Shown here: positions 7,973 to 16,959 of the stretch, one piece after another
How positions within the stretch are numbered: position 1 is the stretch's first letter
Layout: every line of letters begins with the position of its first letter
Notes under the pieces: model-generated
Told to the model about the DNA's origin: nothing
Database searches by the model: none
Seen by the model: the letters and a program-made list of their open reading frames with translations, nothing else
Source: a virus
IMG/VR virus record: IMGVR_UViG_3300021963_000575
Coordinates: 1 to 26,099 of that record
Strand: one strand, 5' to 3'
DNA length: 26,099 nucleotides
Program-made: the position numbers and the translations under genes

Positions 7973-7996
7973 CCTACCTTATGCAGATAAGGTGGG
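7973..7996 (+). promoter_or_regulatory. Inverted repeat and possible promoter ahead of the MoxR gene
   Basis: ACCTTAT and ATAAGGT (7976-7982 and 7987-7993) form a perfect 7-bp repeat around GCAG, extendable to 10 bp with one G-T pair. TTGCAA at 7964-7969, spaced 17 bases from ATAAGG, could be a -35/-10 pair, although this -10 is weak. Its place between a strong terminator and a gene supports a promoter with an overlapping operator. A 5' RNA hairpin is the alternative. Confidence 0.4.
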
Positions 7997-8028
7997 GTAC
8001 ACCACCAACAACAACAAGGAGAACCACA

Positions 8029-9234
8029 ATGGTTGCAGCCAAGGCCCTGCACAAGGGCATGTCTGTCATCGTCAACTCGGGACCTTTCAAGGGGCTGACG
8101 GCTACTGTCATCAACCCCGAGGTGTTTCCCGACGGACACCCTGACCAGCGCAAGGTTGTTGTCGATATCAATGGCGTTGGGGAAGTCAACATCATCCCCA
8201 AGCAGTTGAACATCGGCACCGGCCTTACCCCCACGGTCAGCACGACGACCACCCACGACGAGCCTTACCTCAAGGCGCCCAAGGTGGTTTCGGCCACCAC
8301 CCCCATCACCTCCCTCGACGACCCGGCACTTGACCGTTGGCGTCCGTCCCGTCCCAACCTGCTCAAGGAGTACGTCAGCCGTACCCTTCCTGACGGCAAG
8401 ATTGACACCGACGTCATGCTCACTATGTGGCGTGACGCACGTGTCAACGGGTATGCCCCCAACGTTGGGCTTGTCGGTGACACCAGCACCGGTAAGACCA
8501 TGCTCGTAGAAGTCATGGCCCATCTCGTCGCTAAGGAGATGGGGTTGTCCAAGCCCCTCCCCATCTTCCTGCTCGCGGGTGACAGCGCTATCACTGACCA
8601 CGACATGTTCGGCCAGTACCGTCCTGACGAGAACGGCGACCTGGTGTGGATGGAAGGCATCGTTGCGCTAGCCGCTAGGCTCGGCGGTATCTTGTACCTT
8701 GACGAAATCAATGCCATGCCTGGCAACGTTACGTCAGCCCTCCACCCTCTGTGTGACGACCGACGTCAGTTCGTCAACATCCGTCGCCCAGTCGATGACG
8801 GCCACGGTGGCAAGATGGCCGAGGTTGTGTACGCCAGTCGTGACCTGTGGATCATCTCCACTTACAACCCCGGTTATGCAGGTATGTCTCGTACCAACGA
8901 GGCTTTCGCTGCCAGGTTTGAATGGTTGCCGTGGGATTACAACGACGACGTTGAGCGTAAGCTCATCAAGTCGCCTGCTATCCGACTGCTTGGCCAGGCA
9001 CTGCGCAGTGCACGTGACACCCGTGCCATCTCCACTCCGGTGGGTACCTCTGCACTTCAGAGGCTCGAGCGCAACGTCGCACTCTTCGGAGTTGACTTCG
9101 CACTCTTCGCCTTTGCTGGGCGCTTTACCTCCAAGTCCGAGAAGGCTGTGGTTGACACCATCATCGAGGATCGTAGTATCCGAGTGATGCTCAACACCGA
9201 GGTGTCCTCACCCAAAGAACCAGACACCAACTGA
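8029..9234 (+). CDS. MoxR-type AAA+ ATPase with N-terminal KOW-like domain
   Basis: This 401-residue protein has a KOW/SH3-like N-terminal segment (residues 7-60, KGMSVIVNSGPFKGLTATV) and an AAA+ core with Walker A GDTSTGKT at 150-157, Walker B ILYLDEINAM at about 220-229, and a sensor region with ISTYNPGYAG. The wording LDEINAM and NPGY is typical of MoxR/CobS/GvpN-type ATPases. These pair with VWA-domain proteins to insert metals or remodel complexes, and a VWA gene follows directly. The start is the ATG after ACAACAAGGAGAACCAC; the frame is open to 7981, through the inverted repeat. A reverse-oriented CTAG-N3-CTAG site lies at 8668. Confidence 0.92.
   Translation: MVAAKALHKGMSVIVNSGPFKGLTATVINPEVFPDGHPDQRKVVVDINGVGEVNIIPKQLNIGTGLTPTVSTTTTHDEPYLKAPKVVSATTPITSLDDPALDRWRPSRPNLLKEYVSRTLPDGKIDTDVMLTMWRDARVNGYAPNVGLVGDTSTGKTMLVEVMAHLVAKEMGLSKPLPIFLLAGDSAITDHDMFGQYRPDENGDLVWMEGIVALAARLGGILYLDEINAMPGNVTSALHPLCDDRRQFVNIRRPVDDGHGGKMAEVVYASRDLWIISTYNPGYAGMSRTNEAFAARFEWLPWDYNDDVERKLIKSPAIRLLGQALRSARDTRAISTPVGTSALQRLERNVALFGVDFALFAFAGRFTSKSEKAVVDTIIEDRSIRVMLNTEVSSPKEPDTN
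8668..8678 (-). repeat. CTAG-N3-CTAG site 9
   Basis: On the minus strand it reads CTAGCGGCTAG then C, the same core as site 6, inside the MoxR gene. Confidence 0.65.
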
Positions 9235-9246
9235 TAAGGAGTAACC

Positions 9247-11307
9247 ATGTCAATGTTTGAAGAGGTTATACCTCATAACGACGAAGACATAGATGATGAC
9301 TCGCTGTCCCCCCAGCTAGCGGGTAGGCAAGTGATGACTCGTAAGGAGCTCATCAACTCTCGGGCCCGTATGCGTAATGCGGTTAACCGTGATGCCAAAG
9401 AAGCTGAAGAGCGTGCTCGCAACACTGCCTCGATGCTTCTTTCGTACAACGAGCGTGAGGACTGGTACCGCCAACGTAATGAACGGCGTAACAAATATGA
9501 GAGTGTTGCTTACGGCGTAACGAACATGGCCAACAAGGTGTTACAGAGCCTTGATATCAATGTTCCTCTGCGTGTCGATGCTGACCCACACACCCGCAGC
9601 TACGGCATCACCGACTACGAGTCAATCGACATAACGCTTCACATTCCGGAAAGCGATATCGATACCGTCAGCAACACAGAAGTGTTGTCCGACCTGGTGT
9701 TTAAAGCCAAGGGTATGGTGTACCACGAAGGTGGCCATATCATGTGGACCTACCCCTTTGACAACCTTGTCACGGAGGTTACGGGCATGATCGGTACGGA
9801 CGGTTGTGCCTCCATCATCAAGTCGGTAATCGGTGAGTACGTAGCTAAGCATGCACCATCATTGCTTAGTGATTACACCGATATGGTGTCTAAGTACTCC
9901 ATAAGCCATTTCATCACCCGCATGATGTTCCCAGCTTGGGGCGTACTTGAAGACCAACGCATGGAGACTGCCATGTGTTATACCTCACCAATCATGTCTC
10001 GGTACTTCACCGAGATTGTGTTGGCATGCGTCATTGATCCGCAACACCCAGGTACTGCCTGGCCATGGGTTGCTGGGCGCACCTACTTGCCGAGCAACAT
10101 CCGTCAACTTCTCAGAGAATTGGCTGAGACTAACGGGTTCAGCCAAGTCATCGACGACATAAACGAGCAAGTGTTCAAGTACCGTAAGTCAAACGATGTA
10201 CTTGAGATGTTCGAATGTGTAGTTCGTATGTCTGAACTCATGTACATTTGGTATCAGGGGTGCCCTAGTGAAACCAAGCAGCCCCGCAACGAGCACGGTA
10301 GTAAGTCTGGTAGTGGTGGTGCTAAACAGTTGCCTGTTGTACCTAACCCATATGAACACGATATGGAGCAGCCCAACAAGGTCAAGGGTAGCCAATCCCC
10401 CAGCGAAGGCCAGGGAGAGGAACAGGACAAGGGCGAGGGTGACCCCCAATCCAGTGGTCCATCAACTTCCGGTGACCTAGCCAGTCAGTACGGCAAGCTT
10501 GCTGACAACGAGCGTGCCAAGCAGGCCAACGCTACACGCAAAGACGAGGTTGACTCAGTGGCGTCTGATATCAACAAGCATCGCAATGCTGATATCAAAC
10601 CGTATGCTAACCCATACGCAATGTCATCCGATGAGGTAGAGAAGACCAAGGTTGTGGCTAACGGTATGATCTCGGTGCTTGAGTCGCTTCACTCACAGGT
10701 TGACCCCAGCTGGAGGTTCTACCAAGAGCATGGTGTGCTTGACCCCGTAGCGTTCAGCATGGCTGAGCCCGGTGATGACCGTTACTGGTCAGGCCTCGAC
10801 GATATCGGTGCTAATGGGCATAACCTTGCGGTGTCGATCTTGTTGGACGTATCGGGTTCCATGGGTGGCCATGCTGAGGAACTGTCTATATCAGCTATGG
10901 GTATTCGCAAGGCTTGTGAGTACTTCTCCATCCCGTGTACTATCACTACGTTCAGCGACTTAGCTAGGATGTTTGTTGAGGGAGACACCGAAGAGGCGGA
11001 CTTCATATCCATCTCCGTGGGCGGTGGCACTAACGTGTATGGTGCCATCAGTAAAATGCCTGACCAAACATACGGCAAGCAGAACCACTTAGTGCTCATC
11101 TTGACTGACGGCGAATGGTCTGATGTCGAGGACATCCGACCGTGGGTTGACAACAACAAGTACATCATCTTGGTTGGCTTTAGGATGTACGACCAAGCAA
11201 TCAACAAGATGCGCAAGAAGGGTGCCAACGAGGTGATCAACATCAACGAACTCAGTAAGCTTCCTCAGCTTATGACTAGTGCGCTAGCTGGGTTCATGGC
11301 CAAATGA
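9247..11307 (+). CDS. VWA (CobT-like) protein with HEXXH motif
   Basis: This is a 686-residue partner for the MoxR-type ATPase. Residues 1-330 include HEGGH at 160-164 and LEDQRME at 234-240. That pairing is found in CobT-like and predicted metallopeptidase proteins and could bind zinc, with Glu161 as catalytic residue. Residues about 335-440 are a disordered linker rich in Gly, Ser, Glu, Gln and Pro. The C-terminal VWA domain has the MIDAS motif DVSGSMGG at 534-541, a GGTN segment and LILTDGEW. In CobS/CobT the pair drives cobalt insertion; in phages the substrate is unknown. The gene starts after TAAGGAGTAACC, 12 bases from the MoxR stop, so they are one unit. Confidence 0.9.
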   Translation: MSMFEEVIPHNDEDIDDDSLSPQLAGRQVMTRKELINSRARMRNAVNRDAKEAEERARNTASMLLSYNEREDWYRQRNERRNKYESVAYGVTNMANKVLQSLDINVPLRVDADPHTRSYGITDYESIDITLHIPESDIDTVSNTEVLSDLVFKAKGMVYHEGGHIMWTYPFDNLVTEVTGMIGTDGCASIIKSVIGEYVAKHAPSLLSDYTDMVSKYSISHFITRMMFPAWGVLEDQRMETAMCYTSPIMSRYFTEIVLACVIDPQHPGTAWPWVAGRTYLPSNIRQLLRELAETNGFSQVIDDINEQVFKYRKSNDVLEMFECVVRMSELMYIWYQGCPSETKQPRNEHGSKSGSGGAKQLPVVPNPYEHDMEQPNKVKGSQSPSEGQGEEQDKGEGDPQSSGPSTSGDLASQYGKLADNERAKQANATRKDEVDSVASDINKHRNADIKPYANPYAMSSDEVEKTKVVANGMISVLESLHSQVDPSWRFYQEHGVLDPVAFSMAEPGDDRYWSGLDDIGANGHNLAVSILLDVSGSMGGHAEELSISAMGIRKACEYFSIPCTITTFSDLARMFVEGDTEEADFISISVGGGTNVYGAISKMPDQTYGKQNHLVLILTDGEWSDVEDIRPWVDNNKYIILVGFRMYDQAINKMRKKGANEVININELSKLPQLMTSALAGFMAK

Positions 11308-11345: not shown

Positions 11346-11702
11346 ATGAATGATTCACTAGAAGACACCGCCAGGGAATACCTTGGTGTTAAGCGGGCAA
11401 TCGACGACTTGACCGAGAGGCTCAAGGGCCTTGATAAGTCCATCAAGCAGATGATGGTCGATCAAGACCTCAAGAAGCTCAGCCTCGATGGTAAGTCAAT
11501 TAGCCTTGTGCAGTACCCACAACGATCCTTCAAGATCGACGAGCTGCGTAAGCTGATCTCGGCTTCTACCTTCAACTTGGTAACGGAGCCCAAAGTATCC
11601 ACAGAGATGTTCGACTCAGCAGTCAATGTTGGCAAGATCTCTCAAGAAGTTGCTGACCAAGTCACCGTCAAGACTCCGGTGGCTCAACTCAGGGTCAAGT
11701 AA
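11346..11702 (+). CDS. Coiled-coil hypothetical protein
   Basis: This 118-residue protein has a likely coiled-coil at residues 5-45 (ERLKGLDKSIKQMM) and a basic C-terminal half with SISLVQYPQRSF. It resembles small phage proteins of unknown role found near replication genes. The frame also opens at ATG 11304, which would overlap the VWA stop (ATGA) and add 14 residues. The ATG at 11346 is preferred because GAAAGGGA lies 6 bases upstream. It ends the unit before the structured non-coding region. Confidence 0.8.
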   Translation: MNDSLEDTAREYLGVKRAIDDLTERLKGLDKSIKQMMVDQDLKKLSLDGKSISLVQYPQRSFKIDELRKLISASTFNLVTEPKVSTEMFDSAVNVGKISQEVADQVTVKTPVAQLRVK

Positions 11703-11712
11703 CAAGGCGTAA

Positions 11713-11889
11713 GGGCAAGATAACCGACCTCCCGCCTCTCACTCCTTTCTGAGGTGGAGCTTGCCCTCCCCTGGCCGAGTGACGCACAATGCCTCTGTAG
11801 GGTTTGTTGCGCCTGCAAGTCATAGTGCTACAGCACTTGGCCAGGGGTGAGTTCGGTTAGACTGAAGCACAGCGCAATCGTGGCGCTGT
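11713..11889 (+). ncRNA. Structured RNA ahead of the HNH gene (hairpin, three-way junction, hairpin)
   Basis: The 201-base gap before the HNH gene is dense in perfect pairings. GGGCAAG (11713-11719) pairs with CTTGCCC (11760-11766), with an inner pairing at 11727-11731 and 11751-11755. One base later CCCCTGGCC (11768-11776) pairs with GGCCAGGGG (11839-11847). This encloses two arms: CGCACAA (11783-11789) with TTG and TGCG at 11804-11811, and AGTGC with GCACT (11824-11837). A third hairpin at 11869-11889 has the AATCGTG loop. CCCTCC at 11764-11769 is complementary to GGAGGG in the ribosome site at 11895-11900, so an alternative fold could hide that site. A leader or cis-regulatory RNA is inferred. 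Confidence 0.6.
11869..11889 (+). repeat. AATCGTG-loop hairpin, copy 2
   Basis: A perfect 7-bp stem surrounds the loop AATCGTG (11876-11882). Compared with copy 1 at 3429-3445, pairs 4 and 5 from the loop change from C-G and G-C to G-C and A-T, so pairing is preserved while sequence changes. The ribosome site AAAGGAGGG and the HNH start follow within 15 bases. Confidence 0.6.
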
Positions 11890-11903
11890 CCAAAGGAGGG
11901 TCT

Positions 11904-12374
11904 ATGAGCCTGTGTCGTGGTCCGGTGTGTAACCGCAAAGTCGTATCAAAAGGGTTATGCGCTGCTCACTATAAGCAAATGCAACGAGATGGCGTGTTGC
12001 ACGTCATCGAAGATTCCAAGCTGCCAGAAGATAAGTTCTGGAAGAACATAAAAAAGACAGACGATGGGTGTTGGCTGTGGACAGGGCCTGTGGATAAGGG
12101 TTATGGCCGCATGTACGTGGGCAATAAGGCGTACCAAGTACACCGCTGGTCATATGAACAGCATAAGCACGTAAGCCTTACCAAGGCAGAGACATTAGAT
12201 CACCTATGCCGTAACACTACGTGCTGTAACCCAGAGCATCTCGAGAAGGTGTCGTTGATCGAGAACATCGAGAGGCAGCACCTGTACCACGCCCTTAACG
12301 CGGAGATCAAACGCCTAAGGGATTTCCTAACCGATATCGGATACAACCCCGACACCTTACAAAAGGAGATGTAA
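11904..12374 (+). CDS. HNH endonuclease (HNH_3 type)
   Basis: This 156-residue protein starts after AAAGGAGGG; the frame runs open to 11847, through the hairpin. Residues 1-30 form a small zinc-finger-like segment (CRGPVC, GLCAAHY). The nuclease core has the HNH_3 pattern FWKNIKK..DGCWLWTG..DKGYG, then HRWSYE, then DHLCRNTTCCNPEHL with the catalytic His and metal-binding residues, then LIENIERQ. The C-terminal 30 residues look helical. Proteins of this type are free-standing homing endonucleases or nicking enzymes in many phages. The stop overlaps the next start (TAATG). The strongly folded leader is unusual for such genes. Confidence 0.9.
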   Translation: MSLCRGPVCNRKVVSKGLCAAHYKQMQRDGVLHVIEDSKLPEDKFWKNIKKTDDGCWLWTGPVDKGYGRMYVGNKAYQVHRWSYEQHKHVSLTKAETLDHLCRNTTCCNPEHLEKVSLIENIERQHLYHALNAEIKRLRDFLTDIGYNPDTLQKEM

Positions 12375-13651: not shown

Positions 13652-14046
13652 GCTAGCACTAGCTCTCTGATACGAGCCTTACCCCAACCATCCGTCTCAG
13701 TCCATATGGCGGTGTTAACCCCGTGCTCAGCTAGTAGCTCCTGGCATGCCTCGCACGGCTTGGCCAATCCGATAAGACCGCTCCTTGTTATCCTGGCAAT
13801 GTAGATTGTAGACCCTTGGGCGTCTCCTGCCTTACGCAGTGCTACTTGCTCAGCGTGGTACGAAACACCACCAGGTTCGACTTGTGCTGGGTCATTACGG
13901 TACCGATTGAAACCGGTGCTAAGGACACGCCCACCACCAACAAGCACGGCCCCCACACGCCACTTATCGTGGGGGGCCATCAGTGCTTGTTGTGCAGCGA
14001 CGTTTATCCAGCGAAGATCAGACGTACTGATTTTGGGCATCAGCAA
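13648..14046 (-). CDS. Deoxycytidylate/cytidine deaminase family protein
   Basis: This 132-residue zinc deaminase has HAE at residues 64-66 (proton-shuttle Glu66) and PCEAC at 97-101, providing the zinc ligands His64, Cys98 and Cys101. N-terminal GAVLVGGGRVLSTGFN is typical of the fold. It probably converts dCMP or a related cytidine nucleotide to the uridine form for thymidylate supply. The start is TTG at 14046, five bases after GAGGA; an ATG two codons later is the alternative. The reading start overlaps the WhiB gene end by 29 bases. Confidence 0.85.
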   Translation of the reverse strand: MLMPKISTSDLRWINVAAQQALMAPHDKWRVGAVLVGGGRVLSTGFNRYRNDPAQVEPGGVSYHAEQVALRKAGDAQGSTIYIARITRSGLIGLAKPCEACQELLAEHGVNTAIWTETDGWGKARIRELVLA

Positions 14047-14479
14047 TCAGTTCCTCAGACTTTTCGATAGAGATACCGAGGTGGGTTGCTAGATCACTGA
14101 CGATGCCTCTGGATGGAATCTTTTTAAAAGCGTTGAACTGCTTAAGGCATTTGATAACCACAGTTACCGGCATGCGACAATCAAGATTGTTGGTGTCCAT
14201 GTTTCTGCGCTCCCTTGGAGCCAGGCCGCCGTATACACCGTGGTGTAGCCCATTCTCTATAGCAAAAGTCAAACACTCTTTGCGCACCGTGCATTTAGAG
14301 CAAATCAATTTTGATTCGTTAACACAGGCTTGCATTAAGTGGGCTTCTTCTTTGGAAGGGAAAAAACATGAGGCCCCATGGCCCTTGCACGCAGCTTTCT
14401 GTCTCCACTTGTCGTCTCCCCATGAACGAAGTTGGGGAAGGTCTACCGACTTTTCAATGAGTTGTTCAGATGTGTTCAT
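14018..14479 (-). CDS. WhiB-family Fe-S protein, with C-terminal extension
   Basis: This 153-residue protein has the four WhiB cysteines at C31, C60, C63 and C69 (CSKCTVRKEC) and the GVYGG turn at 81-85 followed by LAPRERR. WhiB proteins bind a [4Fe-4S] cluster and the sigma factor, and are exclusive to actinobacteria and their phages. Extra cysteines at 38 and 52 and a ~55-residue C-terminal extension that may hold an HTH (SDLATHLGISIEKSEELI) are additional features. The ribosome site is weak (AGGA). It probably modulates host or phage transcription or blocks superinfection, as reported for some phage WhiB proteins. Confidence 0.9.
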   Translation of the reverse strand: MNTSEQLIEKSVDLPQLRSWGDDKWRQKAACKGHGASCFFPSKEEAHLMQACVNESKLICSKCTVRKECLTFAIENGLHHGVYGGLAPRERRNMDTNNLDCRMPVTVVIKCLKQFNAFKKIPSRGIVSDLATHLGISIEKSEELIADAQNQYV

Positions 14480-16578: not shown

Positions 16579-16624
16579 AAAAGTCCTACCAGATCAACCA
16601 ATTAGGTCGAAGAGCAGGACTTTT
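16579..16624 (-). terminator. Terminator at the end of the long minus operon
   Basis: AAAAGTCCT and AGGACTTTT form a perfect 9-bp inverted repeat around the last codons and TGA stop of the WhiB gene. On the minus strand it ends in a T-run. Together with the hairpin at 16527-16552 it gives two terminators in series. Confidence 0.55.
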
Positions 16625-16959
16625 ATGTCAAACGTACTACCTTGGTTTGGTATTTTATTGATGTCAACAGGTGTTGGCTTGGGGGGTCTATCGCATTGTC
16701 CACAGTCGCACCCACGTCGATACGACTCAGTGGTTCCGTGTACGATCTTGGCCGTGCCTTTGCGTTCTTGCGGAGTGAGCCCACCCCACATACCCCACAC
16801 TTCGTTGGTGCCGTACGTAGCACACCTGCGCCACACGGGGCATGAATGGCAGACCAGTTTTCCTACGGCGTAGTAGTCGCTAGGGGATGGAGCGTCTAGG
16901 GGCGGGTACCACAAGTCGTGGTGTTTTCCACGACACAGAGCCTCATCTAGCCAATCCAT
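16594..16959 (-). CDS. WhiB-family Fe-S protein, second copy
   Basis: This 121-residue protein has cysteines at C9, C37, C40 and C46 (CHSCPVWRRC) and the GMWGG turn at 56-60 followed by LTPQERK. A second pair of motifs, HGTTESYRRGCDCGQC, follows; it is common in phage WhiB proteins and in small actinobacterial proteins of unknown role. It should bind a [4Fe-4S] cluster and host sigma factor. It is the last gene of the long minus-strand operon and its stop is inside the terminator. Confidence 0.9.
   Translation of the reverse strand: MDWLDEALCRGKHHDLWYPPLDAPSPSDYYAVGKLVCHSCPVWRRCATYGTNEVWGMWGGLTPQERKGTAKIVHGTTESYRRGCDCGQCDRPPKPTPVDINKIPNQGSTFDIKVLLFDLIG

Follow-up and report, generated by a model that had tools for sequence, protein, structure and literature searches.

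An uncatalogued family of structured phage RNAs with a nested pseudoknot, usually located behind a stop codon

The window analyzed here is a stretch of 26,099 nucleotides from a virus (IMG/VR record IMGVR_UViG_3300021963_000575, positions 1 to 26,099). The features between 11346 and 12374 are on the + strand. A gene with a weak match to DUF7376 (11346..11702; E 8e-6, just below the Pfam cut-off) is followed by a structured RNA (11708-11858), a short leader (11858-11900) and a gene for a small HNH endonuclease of 156 aa (11904..12374), with the Shine-Dalgarno sequence AGGAGGG at 11894..11900. Between the end of the upstream reading frame, including its stop codon, and the first helix of the RNA there are 10 nt. 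The HNH gene is a neighbor and is not part of the RNA family described below. Further upstream (7981-11307), an AAA_5 ATPase adjoins a CobT-like VWA protein; this pair also occurs in Gordonia phages, e.g. ChisanaKitsune. Two ORFs, which by eye are WhiB-like (14018-14479 and 16594-16959, both on the - strand), suggest an actinobacterial host. There is no tRNA in the window.

The region 11713-11889 folds strongly, as the earlier note on this DNA had described. Its minimum free energy is -84.2 kcal/mol, compared with a mean of -62.4 (sd 4.07) for dinucleotide shuffles (z = -5.35), and none of 200 shuffles was as stable. The 7-bp stem noticed at that time is helix P1 (GGGCAAG, 11713..11719, with CUUGCCC, 11760..11766). 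The single base that follows is U11767, the spacer between P1 and P4, which is invariant (20/20 aligned rows). The next helix belongs to the P4 arm (11768..11847), the distal part of which is variable. It had been described as a 9-bp stem (11768-11776/11839-11847) and actually extends over 14 bp (11768-11781 with 11834-11847). Two additional hairpins, thought to form a three-way junction inside this stem, were not recovered: the best fold has a single long irregular arm within P4. Three elements had been overlooked. Hairpin P3 (11729..11759) lies inside P1 and has a loop (11739-11750) with the conserved motif CCUUUC (11744-11749). P2 pairs AACCGA (11722..11727) with UCGGUU (11853..11858) across P1, which results in a pseudoknot. 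The pentanucleotide CGUAA (11708..11712) is found immediately 5' of P1 and is highly conserved (C in 20/20, G in 18/20 and UAA in 20/20 aligned rows). The segment between P4 and the 3' strand of P2, J4/2, is UGAGU (11848..11852).

Some details of this fold are less firm. A 2-bp helix P0 (11708-11709 with 11848-11849) is only suggested; its pairs, C11708-G11849 and G11709-U11848, are both possible in 17/20 rows, without compensatory changes. A11712 may pair with U11767. In several single-sequence folds (L161, L178 and L209), P2 is chosen over P1, and the two helices could be alternative rather than simultaneous pairings. No known RNA class had been recognized by eye, and Rfam 15 agrees: there is no match at the gathering level for the window, and a permissive scan of 11600-12000 gave nothing above chance.

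The HNH gene has a leader of its own. It starts with TAGACT (11858..11863), a possible -10 element that the promoter scan did not recognize, and continues with the hairpin ACAGCGC-AATCGTG-GCGCTGT followed by (GT)CCAA (11869..11893). The AATCGTG-loop hairpin of the earlier note is thus present (11869-11889). An alignment of 20 leaders shows that the arrangement TAGACT-N6-hairpin-GTCCAA fronts HNH relatives with or without the large RNA. Because the leader persists without the RNA, the RNA (11708-11858) and the HNH leader (11858-11900) are two separate conserved elements. In the sister phages L012, L014 and L018, an intrinsic terminator replaces the RNA ahead of the same HNH leader.

The leader motif can be written as TAGACT-N6-stem-C(A/C)ANCGTG-stem-GTCCAA and precedes the aligned HNH relatives. 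Near-copies are also found at the start of an ORF for an SNF2-type helicase and, in sister phages, immediately ahead of terminators. The loci concerned are 11858-11893 in the window, L315:3561, L316, L317, L319, L004 and L009. In L002 (3386-3643), a near relative of the window, the RNA and the leader are separated from the HNH gene by a gene for 85 aa; here the leader thus fronts a different gene. On the reverse strand of L317 (8979-9068), the motif is directly followed by an intrinsic terminator, without an ORF; this may encode a very small transcript or be what is left of a gene that was lost. I-TevI is known to use its binding site as an operator. By analogy, the leader motif could be a binding site for the HNH protein that serves as an operator.

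Relatives of the RNA were collected in several ways. A search with the HNH protein resulted in 38 close relatives, and the 260 bases ahead of each start codon were compared. The whole RNA, with changed letters and the same architecture, is present in about 10 distinct contig types (window/L038, L003, L019, L020, L025, L027, L029, L033, L039 and L002; in L002 it sits one gene further upstream). It is absent from the other HNH relatives (L004-L018, L034). Members not associated with HNH genes were found in viral contigs with patterns of the type CGTAAGG...CCTTTC...CTCCC, followed by a P1-helix filter (L082, L125, L148, L127/L108/L269, L161, L209, L178, L035, L202, L213 and L285). A covariance model was built from 12 trimmed sequences, from which the distal P4 had been removed to ease alignment. 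It recovered the pattern-found members at full length and added L096, L120, L128 and, with doubt, L135. Loci were also selected by homology to the CobT-like protein, with an alignment of six sequences. The resulting set has 22 parsed members, L019 (placed by hand) and further model matches; evolution has kept the RNA in about twenty related viral lineages.

P1, CGTAAGG, CCTTTC and CTCCC were used to choose the non-HNH members and are to be read with this in mind. The filter that yielded most of these members made no use of P2, and P4 was used for L269 and L285 only. The HNH- and CobT-selected loci share the same features without such circularity. Most of the HNH-selected loci have CGTAAGG; L020 and L028 carry CCTAAGG in its place.

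Other searches were negative within their scope. Nothing usable resulted from a blastn comparison of the RNA with phage records. A strict DNA pattern had 10 matches in 84,980 bacterial and archaeal genomes, none with the architecture, so that with this pattern there is no sign of the RNA outside phages. No credible match was obtained in five cultured actinophages that carry CobT-like or HNH relatives, and no credible copy of the RNA was found in the sister phages L012, L014, L018, L004 and L036, even with filters switched off.

The members share the strand order P1-P2-P3-P3'-P1'-P4-P4'-P2' and form a nested pseudoknot that is about 100-190 nt long. The consensus consists of CGUAA, P1, a J1/2 of a few nt, P2 (4-7 bp), P3 (5-10 bp), P1', one U, P4 starting with CCC, (C/U)GAN as J4/2, and P2'. 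P1 starts with GG in all members and has 7/7 pairs in those parsed, most of which had been selected for P1 (the HNH-selected loci had not); exceptions are L096 and L120 (6 bp) and L135 (about 4). CCUUUC is found in every parsed member towards the 3' end of the P3 loop and, except in L202, 7-11 nt ahead of P1'.

The pairing is decisively supported by covariation, the check that the earlier note had proposed for the 9-bp stem; the stems named there covary, and pairing is conserved. In the 12-sequence alignment, both sides are changed in 22/28 pairs, and the covariation score is 0.669, compared with 0.224 after shuffling and no more than 0.18 for slid controls. The 22-row model alignment has both-side changes in 22/27 pairs and a score of 0.698 (0.211 when shuffled), but leans towards the structure of the model and includes a mis-fitted row (L002) and a spurious one (L209:8323). 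None of 500 shuffles matched the observed covariation. P2 is not part of the covariance model behind the 22-row alignment. All 6/6 of its pairs are changed on both sides in both alignments. It is paired in 71-76%, which is an underestimate, because P2 is shifted by one base in a number of rows. G-U pairs are frequent in P1-P3. It is thus practically certain that we are dealing with a previously uncatalogued family of real structured phage RNAs.

The genomic setting is variable in its genes and constant in its position. In a search of whole records, matches were found in 11 of 26 viral records, with exactly one copy each. The RNA lies on the coding strand, usually at a distance of 0-17 nt from the preceding stop codon. 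In 12/22 members, the upstream gene terminates with the UAA of CGUAA, and in 9 more its stop codon is 6-17 nt upstream; L285, L096 and L120 are exceptions, with no stop codon immediately ahead of the RNA. In most of the matching records, a same-strand CobT-like VWA gene, often together with a DUF7376-like gene, is found at a distance of up to about 5 kb. Because these genes are nearby, the RNA belongs to one phage group, within which it shifts locally. The downstream genes are unrelated in L002, L035, L127, L178, L161 and L209. In L127, L108 and L269, the RNA precedes a lysozyme-like gene; in L161 and L209, it lies behind a Pyr_excise-type gene; in L178, it is followed by the CobT-like gene. 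In L082, L125 and L148, it is located at the end of an operon and is followed by terminator-like hairpins; the next gene (primase-like) is convergent, and no same-strand gene comes after. A contribution to coding by stop-codon read-through is excluded, because the near-identical L127 and L108 differ by a one-base indel in the P3 loop, which breaks the frame.

What the RNA does has to be judged from its conservation and setting. The earlier note had seen in it the logic of a riboswitch or attenuator for the HNH gene. Conserved unpaired bases around a pseudoknot are indeed typical of ligand-binding RNAs, and the RNA adjoins the HNH leader in the HNH clade. The proposed switch was based on CCCTCC (11764-11769), which is complementary to GGAGGG of the ribosome site (11895-11900). 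The complementarity is real, but the alternative fold that it implies is hardly populated: the CCCUCC-GGAGGG pairing has a probability of ~1e-4, and forcing it results in -92.6 rather than -98.7 kcal/mol, a cost of 6.1. The letters of this putative anti-Shine-Dalgarno element (CCUCCC) are simply the end of P1', the spacer U and the start of P4, and they are kept whatever gene follows. No terminator-like site (GC stem plus T run) was found near the window RNA, and the RNA itself was rejected as an intrinsic terminator on the same grounds. The class of the downstream gene is not conserved, and sometimes there is no such gene, while HNH relatives lacking the RNA retain their own leader. Because the neighbors vary or are missing, the switch is unpopulated and there is no terminator, we do not consider the RNA a riboswitch for the HNH gene; control of a downstream gene in cis in a wider sense (by a riboswitch, an attenuator or a protein-binding leader) is also unlikely. 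The strand order and the nested pseudoknot are identical to those of HDV-like ribozymes. The RNA might represent a new self-cleaving subclass, which would cut between UAA and GG and trim the upstream message at its stop codon. P1 is a 7-bp helix starting with G in most members, as noted above, and J4/2 is CGAA in many, as in HDV. The details, however, do not fit. HDV-like ribozymes are expected to have a short P3, and that of the family is too long. The HDV models of Rfam do not match, P1 is shortened in L096, L120 and L135, and the 5' flank CGUAA is conserved, even though HDV cleavage requires no 5' flank. HDV-like ribozymes need a C at the first position of J4/2, and a change from C to U inactivates them (PMC10879173). 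In the family, this base is C in 12, U in 7 (the window and six rows) and A in 1 (L178) of 20 rows; in the window, U thus occupies the position of the catalytic C. P1.1, which in HDV forms between L3 and the bases after P1' (PMC4908430), has no GG available here, as P1' is followed by a single U and then CCC. Because the catalytic C is a U, P3 is too long and P1.1 is lacking, the RNA is, judged by its sequence, not a standard HDV-like ribozyme. At the sequence level, membership fails, and a diverged self-cleaving subclass is improbable. The HDV-like ribozymes include the theta ribozymes, which occur in phages (PMC10879173). Like the window RNA, they are found in tailed phages and have the same strand order. 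Most of those described cleave at the 3' end of a tRNA, whereas the window RNA has no tRNA neighbor. The RNA family also differs from HDV-like ribozymes in general, which have an invariant catalytic C, a short P3 and P1.1, by lacking these features and having the conserved 5' CGUAA.

We infer that the RNA is an independent domain within the operon transcript and does not serve to switch the following gene, and that what matters is the RNA itself or the RNA end that it creates. It could be a stand-alone RNA that is freed from the operon transcript and acts in trans, with the CCUUUC loop pairing to target messages or binding a host protein. Its single copy, varying positions and unrelated neighbors are in line with this, as is the presence of the loop motif in every parsed member, and CCUUUC is complementary to AAAGG-type ribosome sites, which these phages contain. 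Of the ribosome sites counted, however, no more than about a fifth are of this type, and no conserved target was found. CCTTTC was among the search patterns, although it is also present in the HNH-selected loci. Autoregulation via the ribosome site of the upstream gene was rejected as a general mechanism, as GAAAGG occurs there only in the window and L020. We regard a role in trans as possible though not probable. A chance structure or an element at the DNA level (a cruciform or a recombination site) is hardly credible. It has nothing but the single-copy occurrence in its favor, while covariation exceeds all shuffles and is far lower in the slid controls. The free use of G-U pairs speaks for an element of RNA, not of DNA, and disfavors a cruciform. 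The reading that we tentatively prefer, although it falls short of being probable, is that of a transcript-boundary element. It is favored because the RNA is found at operon ends and because a terminator is in its place in the sister phages. After the upstream ribosome leaves the stop codon, the RNA would fold into a compact pseudoknot. This would block or steer ribonucleases, and the transcript might also be cleaved at UAA|GG or close to it; on one side of the pseudoknot, a stable RNA would then persist. The HNH message would be started or carried by the separate TAGACT leader. The conserved exposed CCUUUC loop is not obviously needed by such a boundary element and could point to pairing in trans or to protein binding.

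Some known systems resemble the RNA in part. To our knowledge, no exonuclease-resistant RNA (xrRNA) is known from bacteria or phages. The xrRNAs of flaviviruses are likewise compact pseudoknots that open a 3' untranslated stretch. They combine a pseudoknotted ring around the 5' end with pairing of two 5' nucleotides in a junction, for which the suggested P0 helix would be a candidate counterpart in the window RNA. The order of helices and the conserved bases are unlike those of the window RNA. The HEARO RNA (IsrB-associated omega RNA) is a structured RNA upstream of an HNH-containing gene, and a structured RNA lies ahead of an HNH gene here too. There is, however, no Rfam match, the 156-aa HNH protein has no IscB/IsrB body, and the RNA is also found where there is no HNH gene. 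The 6C sRNA of actinobacteria has a pyrimidine-rich hairpin loop, which could pair with ribosome sites. The loop is a shared feature, but the 6C architecture is different, and there is again no Rfam match. Flavivirus xrRNAs can stop the bacterial RNase J1 in vitro (PMC5760640), so that blocking of a nuclease is physically possible. A non-exhaustive literature search revealed neither a bacterial exonuclease-blocking RNA nor a described phage RNA of this kind.

Strongly covarying structured RNAs without an Rfam family are uncommon, and the combination found here (a nested pseudoknot in HDV order, a site behind a stop codon, a single copy, and a group of phages that look actinobacterial) is unusual. 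It is tempting to speculate, even if we consider it doubtful, that the family represents a new functional class of phage RNA. It would be a single-copy, post-stop pseudoknot that either blocks the host 5'-3' RNase J, as the first natural bacterial counterpart of xrRNAs, or cleaves itself with HDV topology but does without the catalytic cytosine. The domain of roughly 100 nt is small enough for direct in vitro tests. If the family indeed protects or cuts RNA, it would give phages a novel means of shaping their transcripts in hosts with 5'-3' RNA degradation.
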